Source: Chromobacterium piscinae
GTDB taxonomy: Bacteria; Pseudomonadota; Gammaproteobacteria; Burkholderiales; Chromobacteriaceae
DNA length: 64,000 nucleotides
Reading direction: 5' to 3'
Assembly (NCBI RefSeq): GCF_021129175.1
Contig: NZ_JAJOHV010000022.1
Span: 1 to 64,000, forward strand
The notes below the pieces were generated by a model that ran no database searches, was not told the DNA's origin, and was given only the letters and a program-made list of their open reading frames with translations. The position numbers were made by a program, and so were the translations under genes. Below, in pieces: positions 26,067 through 39,834 of the stretch (positions are counted from its first letter, which is position 1; each line of letters starts with the position of its first letter).

Positions 26067-27491
<1,425 letters not shown>

Positions 27492-27949: not shown

Positions 27950-29743
27950 ATGACCCAATCCGTCCCAGTACATTACACGCTGCGCCCGGTGTCGCCGGAT
28001 GCGCATCTGTTCGAGGCAACCGTCACAGTCACGCACCCGGCCAAGGATGGCCAGGTGTTTTTTTTGCCGGCATGGATTCCCGGCAGTTATATGATCCGTG
28101 AATTTTCCAAGCACATCGTCGAGATGGAGGCCCGCGCCGGCGGCAAACCGGTGGCGCTGCGGCAGCTGGAAAAGAACCGCTGGCAGGCGGCGCCGGCAAA
28201 AGGTGCGCTGACGCTGCGCTATCTGGTTTACGCGTTCGACCTGTCGGTGCGCGGCGCCTATCTGGATGGCGAGCGCGGCTTCTTCAACGGCACCAGTGTG
28301 TTCCTCGCGGTGGAAGGCTATGAGGGCGAGCCCTGCGCCGTGGACATCCACGAGCCGGAAGGCAAGGTCTACGCCGGTTGGAAAGTGGCGACCAGCCTGC
28401 CTGCCGTCGACGTCAAGAAAAAGAGCGGCTTCGGCGCTTACCAGGCATCCAATTACGATGAGCTGATCGACCACCCGGTGGAAATGGGCGAGTTCCAAAA
28501 GGTCAGCTTCAAGGCTTGCGGCGTGCCGCACGAGTTTGTCGTTTCCGGCCGGTTCCAGGGCGATCTGAAGCGATTGGCCGAAGACACCAAAAAGATTTGC
28601 GAATACCAGATCAAGCTGTTCGGCGAGCCGGCCCCGTTCGATCGCTACGTGTTCATGCTGTTCGTCGGCAAGGACATCTATGGCGGCCTGGAGCACCGCG
28701 CGTCCACCGCGCTGGTGGCCAATCGCGACGATTTGCCCGCGCCTGGCGCGACCGATATCGGCGACGGCTACCTGAAGCTGCTGGGCCTGATCAGCCACGA
28801 GTACTTCCATAGCTGGAACGTTAAGCGGATGAAGCCGGCGGCGTTCACGCCCTATGACCTGAACCGCGAAGGCATGACTCGGTTGCTGTGGGCATTCGAA
28901 GGCATCACTTCTTATTACGACGACCTGACCCTGGTTCGCTGCGGCCTGATCGACGAGAAGCGCTACCTGGGCCTGCTGGCCGAAACCATCACCAGCGTGC
29001 AACGCGGCGCGGGTCGCCTCAAGCAGACGCTAGAGCAGTCCAGCTTCGAGGCCTGGACCAAGTACTACCGCCAGGACGAGAACAGTCCCAACAGCATCGT
29101 CAGCTACTACACCAAGGGTTCGCTGGCCGCGCTGGCGCTGGATCTGCTGATCCGCCGCGACAGCAAGGGCAAGCAGTCGCTGGACGACGTGATGCGCGCG
29201 TTGTGGAGCAAGTGGCTGGCCGACGGCAAGGGCCTGGAAGAGGACGAGTGGGAAAAGATCGCGATCGAAACCACCGGCCTCAAGCTCAAGCCCTTCTTCG
29301 ACTTAGCGCTGCGCAGCACCCAGGACCTGCCGTTGGCCGAGCTGCTGAAGAGCCAAGGCGTGGAACTGAAATTCGAGGCCGCACAGGGCGCGTCCGACCG
29401 CGGCGGCGTGGTGGACGCCTTCGCCGGCAAGCCGGCGCCGCTGACGCTGGGCGTCAAGGCCGCGGCCGACGCCGTCGGGGTCAAGCTGGTTCAGGTGCTG
29501 GACGGCGGCGCGGCGCAACAGGCCGGCCTGTCCGGCGGCGACGTGGTGGTGGCGGTGGACAAGCTCCGAGCCTACGATTTGGACAAGCAACTTGTCCGCC
29601 TGTCTGCGGGTGACAAGATCAAGCTGCACGCCTTCCGCCGCGACGAACTGATGACGTTCGACGTCGCGCCGCAGGCCGCGCCGGAGGACACCTGCCGCCT
29701 CAAGTTGGAAGCCGACGGCGGCAAATGGATTGCAGGCCGCTGA
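27950..29743 (+). CDS. M61-family glycyl aminopeptidase-like metallopeptidase with PDZ domain
   Basis: 597 residues. An N-terminal beta domain ([12 protein letters not shown]) leads to the zinc motif [11 protein letters not shown] near residue 283 with the downstream Glu ligand in [12 protein letters not shown], as in M61 peptidases. The C-terminal part contains a PDZ-like domain ([31 protein letters not shown]). M61 enzymes cleave N-terminal Gly or Ala from short peptides; no signal peptide is evident so it is cytosolic. A TAAAAT box at 27913-27918 may be its -10. It lies ahead of pepN on the same strand, 94 bases apart, making a peptide-degradation pair. Confidence 0.92.
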
Positions 29744-36060: not shown

Positions 36061-36118
36061 TCAAGCGTTTGCTTGAATTGCCGCGCAGACGGCGATGGCA
36101 TCGGCCAGCGAGGAAAAT

Positions 36119-37039
36119 ATGGAGAAACTGCAGCAGGATTTATGGGTGCCGGTCGGAGACGGCGAGCGTTTGTATCTGAAGCGCATCTGCGGCCGCGAAG
36201 GCGGCGCGCCGGTGCTGATGGCGCATGGCGTGATGGCCAACGGCCGCACCTTTTATACCGAATCAGGCAAGGGCCTGGCCCACTTCCTGGCCGACGCCGG
36301 CTACGACGTGTACGCAGCCGACCTGCGCGGCCGGGGCCGCAGCACGCCCAAGATCGGCCCGCATTCCCGCCACGGCCAGACCGAGACCATTTGCGAAGAC
36401 CTGCCGGCGCTGCATGACTTCGTCCGCAGGAAAAGCGGCGGCCAGCAGGTGCACTGGATCGCCCATTCATGGGGCGGCGTGCACATGACCAGCTGCCTGG
36501 TTCGCTTCCCGGAAATCGCCGCCCAGGTGGCGAGCGTGGTGTATTTCGGCTCCAAACGCAGCGTGCGGGTGCGCAATCTGAACAAACTGATCGAAGTGGA
36601 CTTCATGTGGTGCACCGCCGCGCGCTGGCTGATCAAGGCTTGCGGCTATCTGCCGGCGCGGCGCATCCGGCTGGGCGCCGACGATGAGAGCGACAAGAGC
36701 CATTTGCAGAGCAAGCTGTGGGCCCAGCCCAGGCCGTGGGTGGACAGCGACGATGGCTTCGATTACGCGGTGGCGGCGGAGACCGGCCATTTGCCGCCGA
36801 TTCTATACTTCGCCGCGGCCAATGACCCCTGCCGCGGCCATCCGGAAGACGTGCGCCGCTTTCGCGACGAATCCGGGCCGCATTTGTCGCGCCTGCATTT
36901 GCTGGGGCGTCGGGCCGGCCATCTGCACGACTACAACCACGTGTCGCTGCTGACCCACCCGGATGCGCCGCGCGACCACTTCCCATTGGCGCTGGACTGG
37001 CTGGCGGGGCGCTACGACGCGGTGGCGGAGAATTATTGA
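36119..37039 (+). CDS. Alpha/beta-hydrolase, lipase-like
   Basis: 306 residues. The oxyanion loop MAHGVMANGRTF comes first, then YAADLRGRGRS, the nucleophile elbow AHSWGG (Ser117), an Asp candidate in AANDPCRG and the catalytic His in HDYNHVSLL. AGGAAA precedes the ATG at 36119, eight codons inside a longer frame. The nucleophile motif A-H-S-W-G is a variant of G-x-S-x-G. No signal peptide is visible, so a cytosolic esterase or lipase is likely; the family also includes gastric-lipase-like acyl hydrolases. It follows the MFS gene by 58 bases on the same strand and could share its transcript. Confidence 0.85.
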   Translation: MEKLQQDLWVPVGDGERLYLKRICGREGGAPVLMAHGVMANGRTFYTESGKGLAHFLADAGYDVYAADLRGRGRSTPKIGPHSRHGQTETICEDLPALHDFVRRKSGGQQVHWIAHSWGGVHMTSCLVRFPEIAAQVASVVYFGSKRSVRVRNLNKLIEVDFMWCTAARWLIKACGYLPARRIRLGADDESDKSHLQSKLWAQPRPWVDSDDGFDYAVAAETGHLPPILYFAAANDPCRGHPEDVRRFRDESGPHLSRLHLLGRRAGHLHDYNHVSLLTHPDAPRDHFPLALDWLAGRYDAVAENY

Positions 37040-37104: not shown

Positions 37105-37142
37105 GAGAGGCCGCATGGATGCCATGCGGCCTCTCAAGTATT
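37105..37142 (+). terminator. Strong hairpin terminator after the hydrolase gene
   Basis: Perfect 12-bp arms GAGAGGCCGCAT / ATGCGGCCTCTC (37105-37116, 37124-37135), loop 7 bases, then AAGTATTTTT. Confidence 0.85.
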
Positions 37143-37709
37143 TTTAGCTGCGCCACCGCGCCACGCGCGAGCGGCTTTCCCCGGCTGGCGAGTCATGGCC
37201 GCGCGCTAATTTATAACTCGGCCTCTCATTTAAAAACGTGATAAACAACTAATCATTTGGCGCCGAATATTGTCGATGTTGATCATTGTCAAATCCAGCT
37301 TCTGTGGAATATGTTTGATCTTGCAATTTTAAAGAGCAGGTGTGAATAAAAAGGCAGTGTGAAGTATTAGCATTAAAGAGCAGTTTTAGTTGAATATGCG
37401 ACATGATGGATGGCTATGTCCTGTGGCGGCGGCCTTTTACTCAATTCGAATTGATTCTTTACGCCTTGTTTTATGGTCGAGCCGTATTGACAGACCAGGG
37501 CGATAAACCGATAAAATCCAGAATCTTGATTGCATTGCTTCCATTTCTCGCGATTTCGGCCTTGATTGGTTTTCGCTTTTGCCAAGGCTTTATCTTGTTG
37601 TGGAACGGATTAAATAATGGTAATGCCAATGGAGCGGCGGTTGTCGATGGCGAAGCGATATATATTCGGCCATGCCGCGGATTAATTCGAACGAAACAGG
37701 TATACCATC
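37143..37709 (+). other. AT-rich region upstream of the triple-RidA gene
   Basis: About 570 bases, from 37210 on distinctly AT-rich for this genome. It contains TTGAT-CATT-GTCAA (37279-37292), nine of ten matches to an FNR box, with TTTGAT (37314-37319) at the class II -10 distance. A 104-codon open frame at 37403-37717 with one hydrophobic stretch has no ribosome site and overlaps the next start, so I do not call it a gene. Confidence 0.5.
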
Positions 37710-38978
37710 ATGAGTAGCTTCAACGCGGTACTGGCAAGGAATTCGGAAAAGGCGCCAAATGGAATGGGGCGGTATTCCCAAACGGTAGCCTTCTCGCACT
37801 ACAACAATTTGTCGGCTCAGTTGCCGGTGGATCCCGCGACGGGGCGCTTGGTGGCCGGCGGAGTGAAAGAACAGGCCGAAAGATGCTTCAAAAATATCCA
37901 GGAAATTATAAAAAGCATCGGCCATGAGATGAGCGATGTGGTGAGGATCACCATTTTTCTGCAAGATATCTCCGACATGGATGCGGTCAATGCGGTGTAT
38001 TCCGCCTTCTTCCCGGATTATGTTCCTACCTTGACGACTGTCGCGGTCGCGGCTTTGCCGATGGGAGCCTTGTTGCAGGTGGAGGCTCTGCTTTCCAATG
38101 GCGAGGGCACGATTCCCAATGCGCCGCAGGCTGGCGATCTGGTTAAGGTCGCAAGCGATAGCCGCAATGCGCCGACCAGCCATTTGTCTACCCAATCGGT
38201 AGCCTTTTCCCATTACAACAATATCTCGGCTCAGTTGCCGATTGATCCTGAATCCGGAAAACTGGTCGCCGGCGGCGCAAGAGAGCAGGCAGTTCAGTGC
38301 TTGAAGAATATCCGGGCGATTCTGGAAAATATCGCAGTGCCGTTTGACGATATTGTCAAAGTCAATATTTTCCTTAAAAACCTGTCGGATATCGAATCGG
38401 TAAACGAAGCTTATCGCGCGTTCTTCCCGGATTCGGCCATCGCCAGGGCCGTGGCCTATGTTCCGGCGCGCACGGTAGTGGAAGCCACGCTGCCTATGGA
38501 CGCTTTGGTGCAAATTGAAGCGGTGGTGTCGCATGGGGACGGCACGCCGCCGCAAGCGGTTGAAGACAGGCACGGCATCGTGATCAACGCGCATAACACT
38601 GACAACGCTCCCCGCTGCCCGCTTTCTACGCAAACGGTGGCGTTCTCCCATTACAACCATCTTTCCGCTCAATTGCCTTTGCATCCGGAGACGGATGAAA
38701 TGGTGGCCGGCGGCGTGAAAGAGCAGGCCGCGCAGTGCTTGAACAACATCAAGGCCATCGTGGAGAGCATAGGCCACGCGATGGGCGATGTGGTCAAGGT
38801 CAATGTTTTCCTTAAAAACATCGCGGATATGGATGCGGTGGACGAGGTTTACGCCACCTTCTTCCCGGGCGGCGTTCCCGCGCGGCGGGTGGTGGGCGTT
38901 GGCGCCTTGCCTCGCGGCGCGATGATACAAATCGATGCCGTGGTGGCGAATGCCGAGGGCACGCCTCCGAAAGCATAA
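37710..38978 (+). CDS. Protein of three tandem RidA (YjgF/UK114) domains
   Basis: 422 residues made of three RidA-like units at about 8-131, 150-275 and 298-414. Each has the series VAFSHYN-xx-SAQLP, an EQA-x-x-C-x-x-N-I helix, a hydrophobic VxIFL/VFLK strand and an A-x-FFP segment. Ordinary RidA is a single ~130-residue domain forming a trimer that hydrolyses reactive 2-aminoacrylate. Its catalytic Arg105 aligns with Leu108 in unit 1, Arg254 in unit 2 and Arg392 in unit 3, so unit 1 looks inactive. The fusion could form a trimer-like unit in one chain. Codon use is less GC-biased than nearby genes, suggesting transfer. Substrate unknown. Confidence 0.9.
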   Translation: MSSFNAVLARNSEKAPNGMGRYSQTVAFSHYNNLSAQLPVDPATGRLVAGGVKEQAERCFKNIQEIIKSIGHEMSDVVRITIFLQDISDMDAVNAVYSAFFPDYVPTLTTVAVAALPMGALLQVEALLSNGEGTIPNAPQAGDLVKVASDSRNAPTSHLSTQSVAFSHYNNISAQLPIDPESGKLVAGGAREQAVQCLKNIRAILENIAVPFDDIVKVNIFLKNLSDIESVNEAYRAFFPDSAIARAVAYVPARTVVEATLPMDALVQIEAVVSHGDGTPPQAVEDRHGIVINAHNTDNAPRCPLSTQTVAFSHYNHLSAQLPLHPETDEMVAGGVKEQAAQCLNNIKAIVESIGHAMGDVVKVNVFLKNIADMDAVDEVYATFFPGGVPARRVVGVGALPRGAMIQIDAVVANAEGTPPKA

Positions 38979-38996: not shown

Positions 38997-39028
38997 AAAG
39001 AGAGCGGGATTATTTCCGCTCTCTTTTT
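38997..39028 (+). terminator. Terminator of the triple-RidA gene
   Basis: Perfect 11-bp arms AAAGAGAGCGG / CCGCTCTCTTT (38997-39007, 39016-39026) followed by T. Confidence 0.9.
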
Positions 39029-39204: not shown

Positions 39205-39834
39205 ATGACCGCGCTGCAATTCGAACTCGACGCCGTACTCGACACCCTGGCCGACCAGGGCTGGATCGTCATCCCCCGCGCCTTGCCGGCGGAATTGGTC
39301 GCCAATCTGCGCGAGGCCTGCCTGCAAGTGTGGGACGATGGCCGCTTCCACGAGGCCGCCACTGGCCGCGCCGATGGCCAGGCGCGCCGGGCAGAGATCC
39401 GCTCCGACTCGGTGCTGTGGCTGGATCAGGTGGATGGATTGCCGGCGGTGCGCGCCTACAACGCCGCGATGGACGAAATCATGCAGGCGGTGAATCGCGG
39501 CCTGTACCTGGGCCTGACCGAGCTGGAGTCGCATTTCGCCGTCTACCCGGAAGGGGCGTTCTACAAAAAACACCTGGACCGCTTCCGCGACGACGACGCT
39601 CGCGTGTTGACCACGGTGTTCTACCTAAACGAGAACTGGCCGGCCGACGGCGGCGGCCAGATCCGCCTGTACCTGGACAATGCCTGCCAGGAATTCATCG
39701 ACGTGGAGCCGGAAGCCGGCACCTTGGTGTTGTTCCTGGCCGACCGTTTCTGGCATGAGGTATTGCCGGCCAAACAGCAGCGCTTGTCGGTCACGGGCTG
39801 GTATCGCCGCCAGGGCGGCAGCTTGCCGTGGTGA
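39205..39834 (+). CDS. 2OG-Fe(II) oxygenase, prolyl-hydroxylase-like
   Basis: 209 residues. The iron triad is readable: His123-x-Asp125 in YKKHLDRF and His184 in FWHEVLP; Arg193 (QQRLSVTGWY) should bind 2-oxoglutarate. The P4Hc-type core continues with VLTTVFYLNENW and GGGQIRLYL. Similar bacterial proteins resemble PHD2/SM-20 and the Pseudomonas PPHD that hydroxylates EF-Tu, so a protein prolyl target is plausible. It is a single gene between the RidA fusion and a noncoding block; any functional link to RidA is unknown. Confidence 0.88.
   Translation: MTALQFELDAVLDTLADQGWIVIPRALPAELVANLREACLQVWDDGRFHEAATGRADGQARRAEIRSDSVLWLDQVDGLPAVRAYNAAMDEIMQAVNRGLYLGLTELESHFAVYPEGAFYKKHLDRFRDDDARVLTTVFYLNENWPADGGGQIRLYLDNACQEFIDVEPEAGTLVLFLADRFWHEVLPAKQQRLSVTGWYRRQGGSLPW

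Follow-up and report, generated by a model that had tools for sequence, protein, structure and literature searches.

Among described systems, those closest to the gene reported here are the homotrimeric RidA/TdcF/UK114 proteins and a fused form, for which Niehaus et al. (2015; PMC4433059) introduced the name 3x-RidA: proteins with three tandem RidA domains, exemplified by EF_0115 of Enterococcus faecalis and presumed to be covalently linked trimer units. The name stands at one place of that paper, which reports neither an analysis of the residues of 3x-RidA nor its activity or regulation, and the 'triple RidA' found there is a triple knockout, not a tandem protein. The same source describes Arg105 as highly conserved in RidA, with Ser in ~10 % of RidA proteins, and Glu120 as a residue of RidA and Rid1-7. 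In Arabidopsis RidA, R165A left 2.2 % of activity, K136A/R were among the largest falls and E180A was moderate in effect, E180 being a residue that enters the pocket from the adjacent subunit (PMC4960622). Here, we describe a 3x-RidA gene in a 64,000 nt stretch of Chromobacterium piscinae DNA (contig NZ_JAJOHV010000022.1, positions 1 to 64,000, forward strand; hereafter the window).

We favour, with a little more confidence than doubt, the reading that 3x-RidA is an imine deaminase, built as a covalent RidA-like trimer whose pockets are altered. Novelty of the architecture, as implied by a first-pass annotation of the window, is not supported; it was named in 2015, and occurs in ~2 % of sampled species and in three phyla. 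Within the open-licence literature, no second paper using the term 3x-RidA and no functional study of such a protein was found, nor was any further study of tandem, fused or triple RidA or of the motif S-H-Y-N among the matches listed. The relevant parts of two papers that mention the E. faecalis locus have no bearing on its function: PMC6834293 lists, for a drug-evolved population, a mutation that lies between EF_0115 and EF_0116, and PMC3084688 places EF0115 in a table of pathogenicity-island regions. The section of PMC2432076 that was considered as a source treats a different E. faecalis L-PSP gene, EF2574.

The 3x-RidA gene of the window

Like the 3x-RidA of Niehaus et al. (2015), the protein encoded in the window consists of three tandem RidA domains in one chain, and an E. 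faecalis copy is 65 % identical to it over 100 % of the query. Pfam PF01042 matched the 422 aa protein in three stretches (E=6.1e-75), as did NCBIfam TIGR00004 (Rid family detoxifying hydrolase; 9.2e-87), where the score of 287.6 bits exceeds the curated cut-off of 106.25. A PF01042 search of the whole genome placed all three units in one open frame, and returned two further matches in the same genome, one of which is a 127 aa RidA-like frame. The units are identical to one another at 67/121, 71/127 and 69/121 protein positions (55-57 %) and at 68-73 % of DNA positions over ~240 bp, in both cases far above chance. The three tandem units recognized in the first-pass annotation are borne out, and their origin by duplication is supported.

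Alignment also confirmed the residues that had been assigned to the Arg105 position, namely Leu108, Arg254 and Arg392 in units 1, 2 and 3. A member of the RidA subfamily would be expected to have Arg105 in each site; the window protein has Arg in two of its three units, and differs from the 3x-RidA named in 2015 in carrying Leu at the unit 1 position. Glu120, conserved in RidA although Niehaus et al. do not use it to delimit the subfamily, is Gln in all three units. As previously observed, the gene lies in DNA that is less GC-rich than its neighbours: GC content is 0.645 over the whole window, but 0.56 in the gene and 0.47 in the preceding 670 bp. Third-position GC of the gene is 0.67, compared with 0.83-0.88 in three neighbouring genes.

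Residues kept and lost in 3x-RidA proteins

Residues were counted in 92 distinct 3x-RidA proteins. At the Arg105 position, unit 1 had Arg in 59, Leu in 26, Gln in four and Lys in three; unit 2 had Arg in 87, Leu in three and Val in two; and unit 3 had Arg in all 92. The Lys73 position was occupied in unit 1 by Arg (82) or Lys (10), in unit 2 by Lys (83), Arg (eight) or Asn (one), and in unit 3 by Lys without exception. These counts indicate a graded loss of the putative catalytic Arg, which is optional in unit 1 and fixed in unit 3. Since Arg is kept in 59 of the 92 first units, Leu108 appears to be tolerated by unit 1 and not to define 3x-RidA. The suggestion of 'one dead or altered site' is supported in that unit 1 has Leu in place of Arg, but not as a defining trait of the protein. 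Arg in place of Lys73 in unit 1 is a weak sign of inactivity, as five of 22 one-unit proteins have Arg there too.

On a tree of the 92 proteins, built with position 108 left out, eight changes between Arg and non-Arg were required at the unit 1 position. Twenty-five of the 26 Leu residues fell in a single 26-row clade (support 98) of Neisseriales, Pseudomonas, two other genomes and Buttiauxella, with one Leu elsewhere and one Arg, from Pseudonocardia, inside the clade. Leu108 is mostly a lineage trait.

A stronger signal, overlooked in the first-pass annotation, is shared by all three units: an S-H-Y motif in a hairpin turn, together with replacement of Gly31 and Glu120. S-H-Y was present in 92 of 92 proteins in every unit, and the complete F-S-H-Y-N in 86, 92 and 92 (units 1, 2 and 3, respectively); Gly31 was replaced by Ala in 91, 92 and 84. 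For comparison we used 22 Rid proteins (L001, L002 and L107-L126), taken as single-domain from one-unit hits; one of them, L002, belongs to a different Rid type and was matched only in part. Gly31, Arg105 and Glu120 were present in all 22, and S-H-Y was absent from each of the 21 that span the turn. One of those 21 did have His at the turn, so that His alone is not a unique mark of 3x-RidA. The S-H-Y turn, whose conservation exceeds that of the catalytic Arg in units 1 and 2, is a concrete, testable clue to the function of the family. In summary of the likeness, 3x-RidA shares with the RidA/TdcF/UK114 homotrimer the predicted fold and, in units 2 and 3, Arg105 and Lys73; it differs in being a single chain with Ala31, Gln120 and the S-H-Y turn in all units, and in usually having lost Tyr17 from units 2 and 3.

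Predicted structure and origin of the units

An AlphaFold2 model of the window protein was compact, with a predicted template modelling score (pTM) of 0.91. When folds in the PDB were compared by means of VIA-align matches, the best was a whole single-chain chorismatase (PDB 4bps, 5a3k and 5ag3), a different enzyme, with 287 residues aligned at 11-13 % identity in the structural alignment. The built-in pseudo-trimer proposed in the first-pass annotation is thus supported by prediction only, through both the model score and the whole-chain match. None of the Pfam and NCBIfam matches of the protein was to a chorismatase model, although whether these collections contain one was not checked. No solved triple-RidA structure was found in the PDB, the longest sequence match among the 48 listed being 165 aa.

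A unit tree was constructed by a quick method on few columns; it comprised 81 units, drawn from 27 of the 92 proteins, together with 21 one-unit RidA proteins. The units of 3x-RidA split from the single-domain proteins with support of 100, and unit 2 and unit 3 each formed one group (92 and 95, respectively). Because units group by position across phyla, the tree fits a single old triplication behind 3x-RidA. Mean pairwise identity was 0.697, 0.771 and 0.718 for units 1, 2 and 3; the value for unit 1 is the lowest by a small margin, and we rejected the idea of its faster decay.

Distribution and horizontal transfer

Relatives were collected by a pattern scan of genome contigs with the window protein, from which the best 80 of 320 were kept. 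These were 66-99 % identical to the query, and each spanned at least residues 11-422; the closest named relative among them was that of Chromobacterium vaccinii MWU205, at 99 % protein identity. In whole-genome sampling (E<=1e-60, centre genome included), 3x-RidA was detected in 7/398 Pseudomonadota, 9/398 Bacillota and 10/396 Actinomycetota genomes. The full-length protein was present in 18 of the 61 relatives of the window genome (itself included), divided between the genus (10/19) and the rest of the family (8/18), with none in the other families of the order (0/24). 3x-RidA is therefore patchy, yet well conserved across phyla.

The window protein shares up to 77 % identity with copies from Sporosarcina, about the closeness of two same-genus copies (78 %). 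The GC content of the gene tracks that of the host with a slope of 0.57 (r 0.83, 78 loci), and several high-GC hosts have a copy of much lower GC. Taken together, these sequence features suggest that the gene is horizontally mobile and has been passed repeatedly between phyla. Twelve plasmid records carry 3x-RidA. The plasmid matches H3-H9 are of Vibrio parahaemolyticus (85-104 kb), several of them from shrimp. Holophagaceae bin-1248 (L064, L065) and Clostridium sp. CF012 (L041, L080) each have two copies, on separate contigs.

Carriage by phages was considered and rejected. Viral contigs gave one pattern match and no confirmed relative, and of 24 records in a phage collection two spanned 80 % or more of the query. 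One of these, OR846589.1 (Enterococcus phage Efs 1-1-1; H13), holds a full 3x-RidA; at 548 bits it scored almost as high as a replicon of E. faecalis (549 bits), so it is probably host DNA. A DNA search of complete Escherichia coli genomes with a Citrobacter copy gave no match.

Upstream region and putative oxygen control

The consensus for the oxygen-responsive regulators FNR and ANR is TTGAT-N4-ATCAA. A box matching it at nine of ten letters, TTGATCATTGTCAA, lies in the leader of the window gene, and occupies the same aligned columns in eight Chromobacterium leaders. The distance from box to ATG is 418 bp, a long leader that contains a second conserved promoter-like element, within which TTGACAG and CGAT do not vary among the same eight leaders. 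We scored 21 Neisseriales leaders, a set from which three duplicate records were left out and in which two are of the same species: a box with at least nine of the ten letters was present in 13, against 0-1 for six control patterns. In the window genome, the FNR pattern had 27 strand matches, against five for the reversed control. Copies in Chromobacterium and Aquitalea are preceded by such a box, and are probably under oxygen control via an FNR/ANR regulator.

The only other exact match in the window, TTGATCCATGTCAA, is found 371 bp before ccoN, and genes for cbb3 oxidases are controlled by FNR-type regulators. As a divergent PDZ/HtrA-like gene begins 75 bp from this box, it is not assignable to ccoN alone. 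Rfam yielded one match for the 3x-RidA leader, far short of its gathering score, and none that exceeded it. An open reading frame (ORF) at 37403-37717 was rejected as a gene, having no Pfam match and a frame that by eye is not kept in the leader alignment. Several blocks between 37310 and 37709 are conserved in eight Chromobacterium genomes; another promoter or an RNA element may lie there.

Function of 3x-RidA proteins

If 3x-RidA is a covalent imine deaminase, its three units would form a single ring whose pockets lie where units adjoin, like those of homotrimeric RidA, and reactive imines or enamines, or a related small carboxylate imine, would be hydrolysed at the Arg-bearing pockets of units 2 and 3. 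Fusion would have freed the units to diverge, and the unchanged Arg392 and Lys363 of unit 3, set beside the optional Arg of unit 1, point to a functional asymmetry in which the unit 3 Arg is essential and that of unit 1 dispensable. The window enzyme would then combine two canonical-Arg pockets with one altered pocket, bearing the Leu of the Neisseriales-centred clade. The presence of Ala31, Gln120 and the S-H-Y turn in all units implies that substrate or chemistry differs somewhat from that of single-domain RidA, which the window genome and four of five hosts checked also carry. The Chromobacterium and Aquitalea copies may be used at low oxygen. 3x-RidA can serve as a natural experiment with an enzyme that is otherwise homotrimeric: after fusion each pocket can be lost separately, and conservation in the 92 proteins tells which one stays. 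Its lone occurrence across phyla and the FNR-like box of some Neisseriales provide a physiological setting for tests.

Several observations weigh against this interpretation or its parts. Glu120 is replaced by Gln in 91, 92 and 91 of the 92 proteins (units 1, 2 and 3), and given this change and the usual loss of Tyr17 from units 2 and 3, the pockets may not perform RidA chemistry. The ring is predicted, and the model scores do not tell which units share a pocket; a search of the open-licence literature for activity data on 3x-RidA found none. According to the parts of PMC4433059 that concern gene context, RidA genes at large cluster with threonine dehydratase and other pyridoxal phosphate-enzyme genes, whereas the 3x-RidA gene does not. 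In the unit tree, unit 1 is not one group, since the branch of the single-domain proteins lies among unit 1 rows and two changes are needed; rooting or long branches may account for this, and the order of events is provisional. As for low oxygen, eight of the 21 Neisseriales leaders score below nine, and an FNR-type box can also repress. Outside Neisseriales the box occurs in 7/72 leaders, within the 1-9/72 of the controls, so low-oxygen control is not general and we rejected the box as a family-wide trait.

Alternatively, the RidA-fold pseudo-trimer may have gone from imine deamination to another reaction or to ligand binding, as the chorismatases have, with S-H-Y, Ala31 and Gln120 marking the new job and Arg only holding a carboxylate. 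We consider this possible and on balance doubtful. It draws on the separation between the one-unit proteins (Gly31 and Glu120 in 22/22, S-H-Y in 0/21) and every 3x-RidA unit (S-H-Y in 92/92), on the chorismatase as best whole-chain match, and on the presence of another PF01042 protein in the four hosts mentioned. The fold match is, however, one of 11-13 % identity, the TIGR00004 cut-off is exceeded, the unit 3 Arg and Lys are invariant, and in the fifth host, Raoultibacter timonensis (L067, G454), the three units of 3x-RidA are the only PF01042 matches found in the genome. This species represents a natural host in which to ask whether 3x-RidA replaces RidA.

A bolder proposal, which we regard as improbable, is that the covalent ring gathers the three invariant His-Tyr turns into a second, ring-level site for a metal, anion or cofactor that homotrimeric RidA lacks. 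This would make 3x-RidA an enzyme in its own right, run at low oxygen in Neisseriales and spread from phylum to phylum as a solitary gene. The interface Arg pockets would be accessory sites for carboxylates; that they are accessory would explain why the unit 1 Arg is losable and no His or Tyr is lost. More improbable still is that Leu108 is neutral, the covalent trimer acting like RidA and unit 1 having changed through relaxed constraint only. The eight changes on the tree and the occurrence of Gln and Lys agree with this, but the concentration of Leu in one clade indicates a stable replacement and not drift to many residues, and the unit 3 Arg is never lost. A non-enzymatic or ribonuclease role (chaperone after chlorination, or RNA cleavage) is highly improbable: the published accounts consulted in part attribute such activities to single-domain RidA/YjgF members, yet nothing in the sequence or context of 3x-RidA points to them, and the unit 3 Arg and Lys are invariant.

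Genomic setting

Neighbouring ORFs were clustered for 80 loci and the window, with flanks of up to 8 kb. Antisense ORFs of the 3x-RidA gene itself excepted, no partner was conserved in more than seven of the 81 loci; the commonest neighbours were a groEL-like gene (7/81, accompanied in six by a groES-like gene; identified by eye) and one further ORF cluster (7/81). By heuristic gene calls, a same-strand ORF lay within 60 bp in 1/76 loci upstream and 1/75 downstream. The 3x-RidA gene is stand-alone, without conserved partners. Features of the window are given in Table 1.

Table 1. Positions of the 3x-RidA gene, its units and surrounding features in the window
Feature	Position	Strand	Details
3x-RidA gene	37710..38978	+	422 aa then stop; three PF01042 units in one chain
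RidA unit 1 (residues ~13-127)	37746..38090	+	Leu108 (Arg105), Arg79 (Lys73), Gln123 (Glu120), Ala36 (Gly31), SHYN 29-32
RidA unit 2	38196..38528	+	Arg254, Lys217, Gln268, Ala174, SHYN 167-170
RidA unit 3	38634..38948	+	Arg392, Lys363, Gln407, Ala320, SHYN 313-316
FNR/ANR-like palindrome TTGATCATTGTCAA	37279..37292	+	9/10 consensus letters
Promoter-like TTGTCA-18-TATGTT	37286..37315	+	Overlaps FNR-like box; consensus match only
Promoter-like TTGACA-17-GATAAA	37487..37515	+	Leader alignment; not among promoter-scan elements
Terminator-like hairpin after upstream hydrolase gene	37105..37135	+	Scan
Inverted repeat then T run past stop codon, possible terminator	38999..39028	+	Seen in sequence; not among scan elements
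Alpha/beta hydrolase gene	36095..37039	+	Left border, outside system; domain search
2-Oxoglutarate (2OG)-Fe(II) oxygenase gene	39205..39834	+	Right border, outside system; domain search
Second FNR/ANR-like box TTGATCCATGTCAA	27862-27875	-	Only other exact match in window
ccoN	26067-27491	-	TIGR00780, 804.5 bits
PDZ/HtrA-like gene	27950-29743	+	Divergent from ccoN

In eight of 19 Chromobacterium genomes, 3x-RidA is located between the alpha/beta hydrolase and 2OG-Fe(II) oxygenase genes; in G008 and G011 it is present at a different location. Where the spot lacks 3x-RidA, the hydrolase and oxygenase matches are <100 bp apart in six genomes (G001, G002, G005, G008, G013 and G018), separated by a gap of ~250 bp in G011 and by 600-750 bp of other sequence in G003, G004 and G016, and G010 has no hydrolase match. 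A tblastn search of nine gap sequences (all gaps but that of G013) with the 3x-RidA protein gave a best E of 0.24. Our reading is that this is a variable insertion spot in Chromobacterium. By eye, the gaps of G003, G004 and G016 (L172, L173 and L174), three Chromobacterium species that lack 3x-RidA, contain a gene for a membrane protein and a frame resembling an acetyltransferase.
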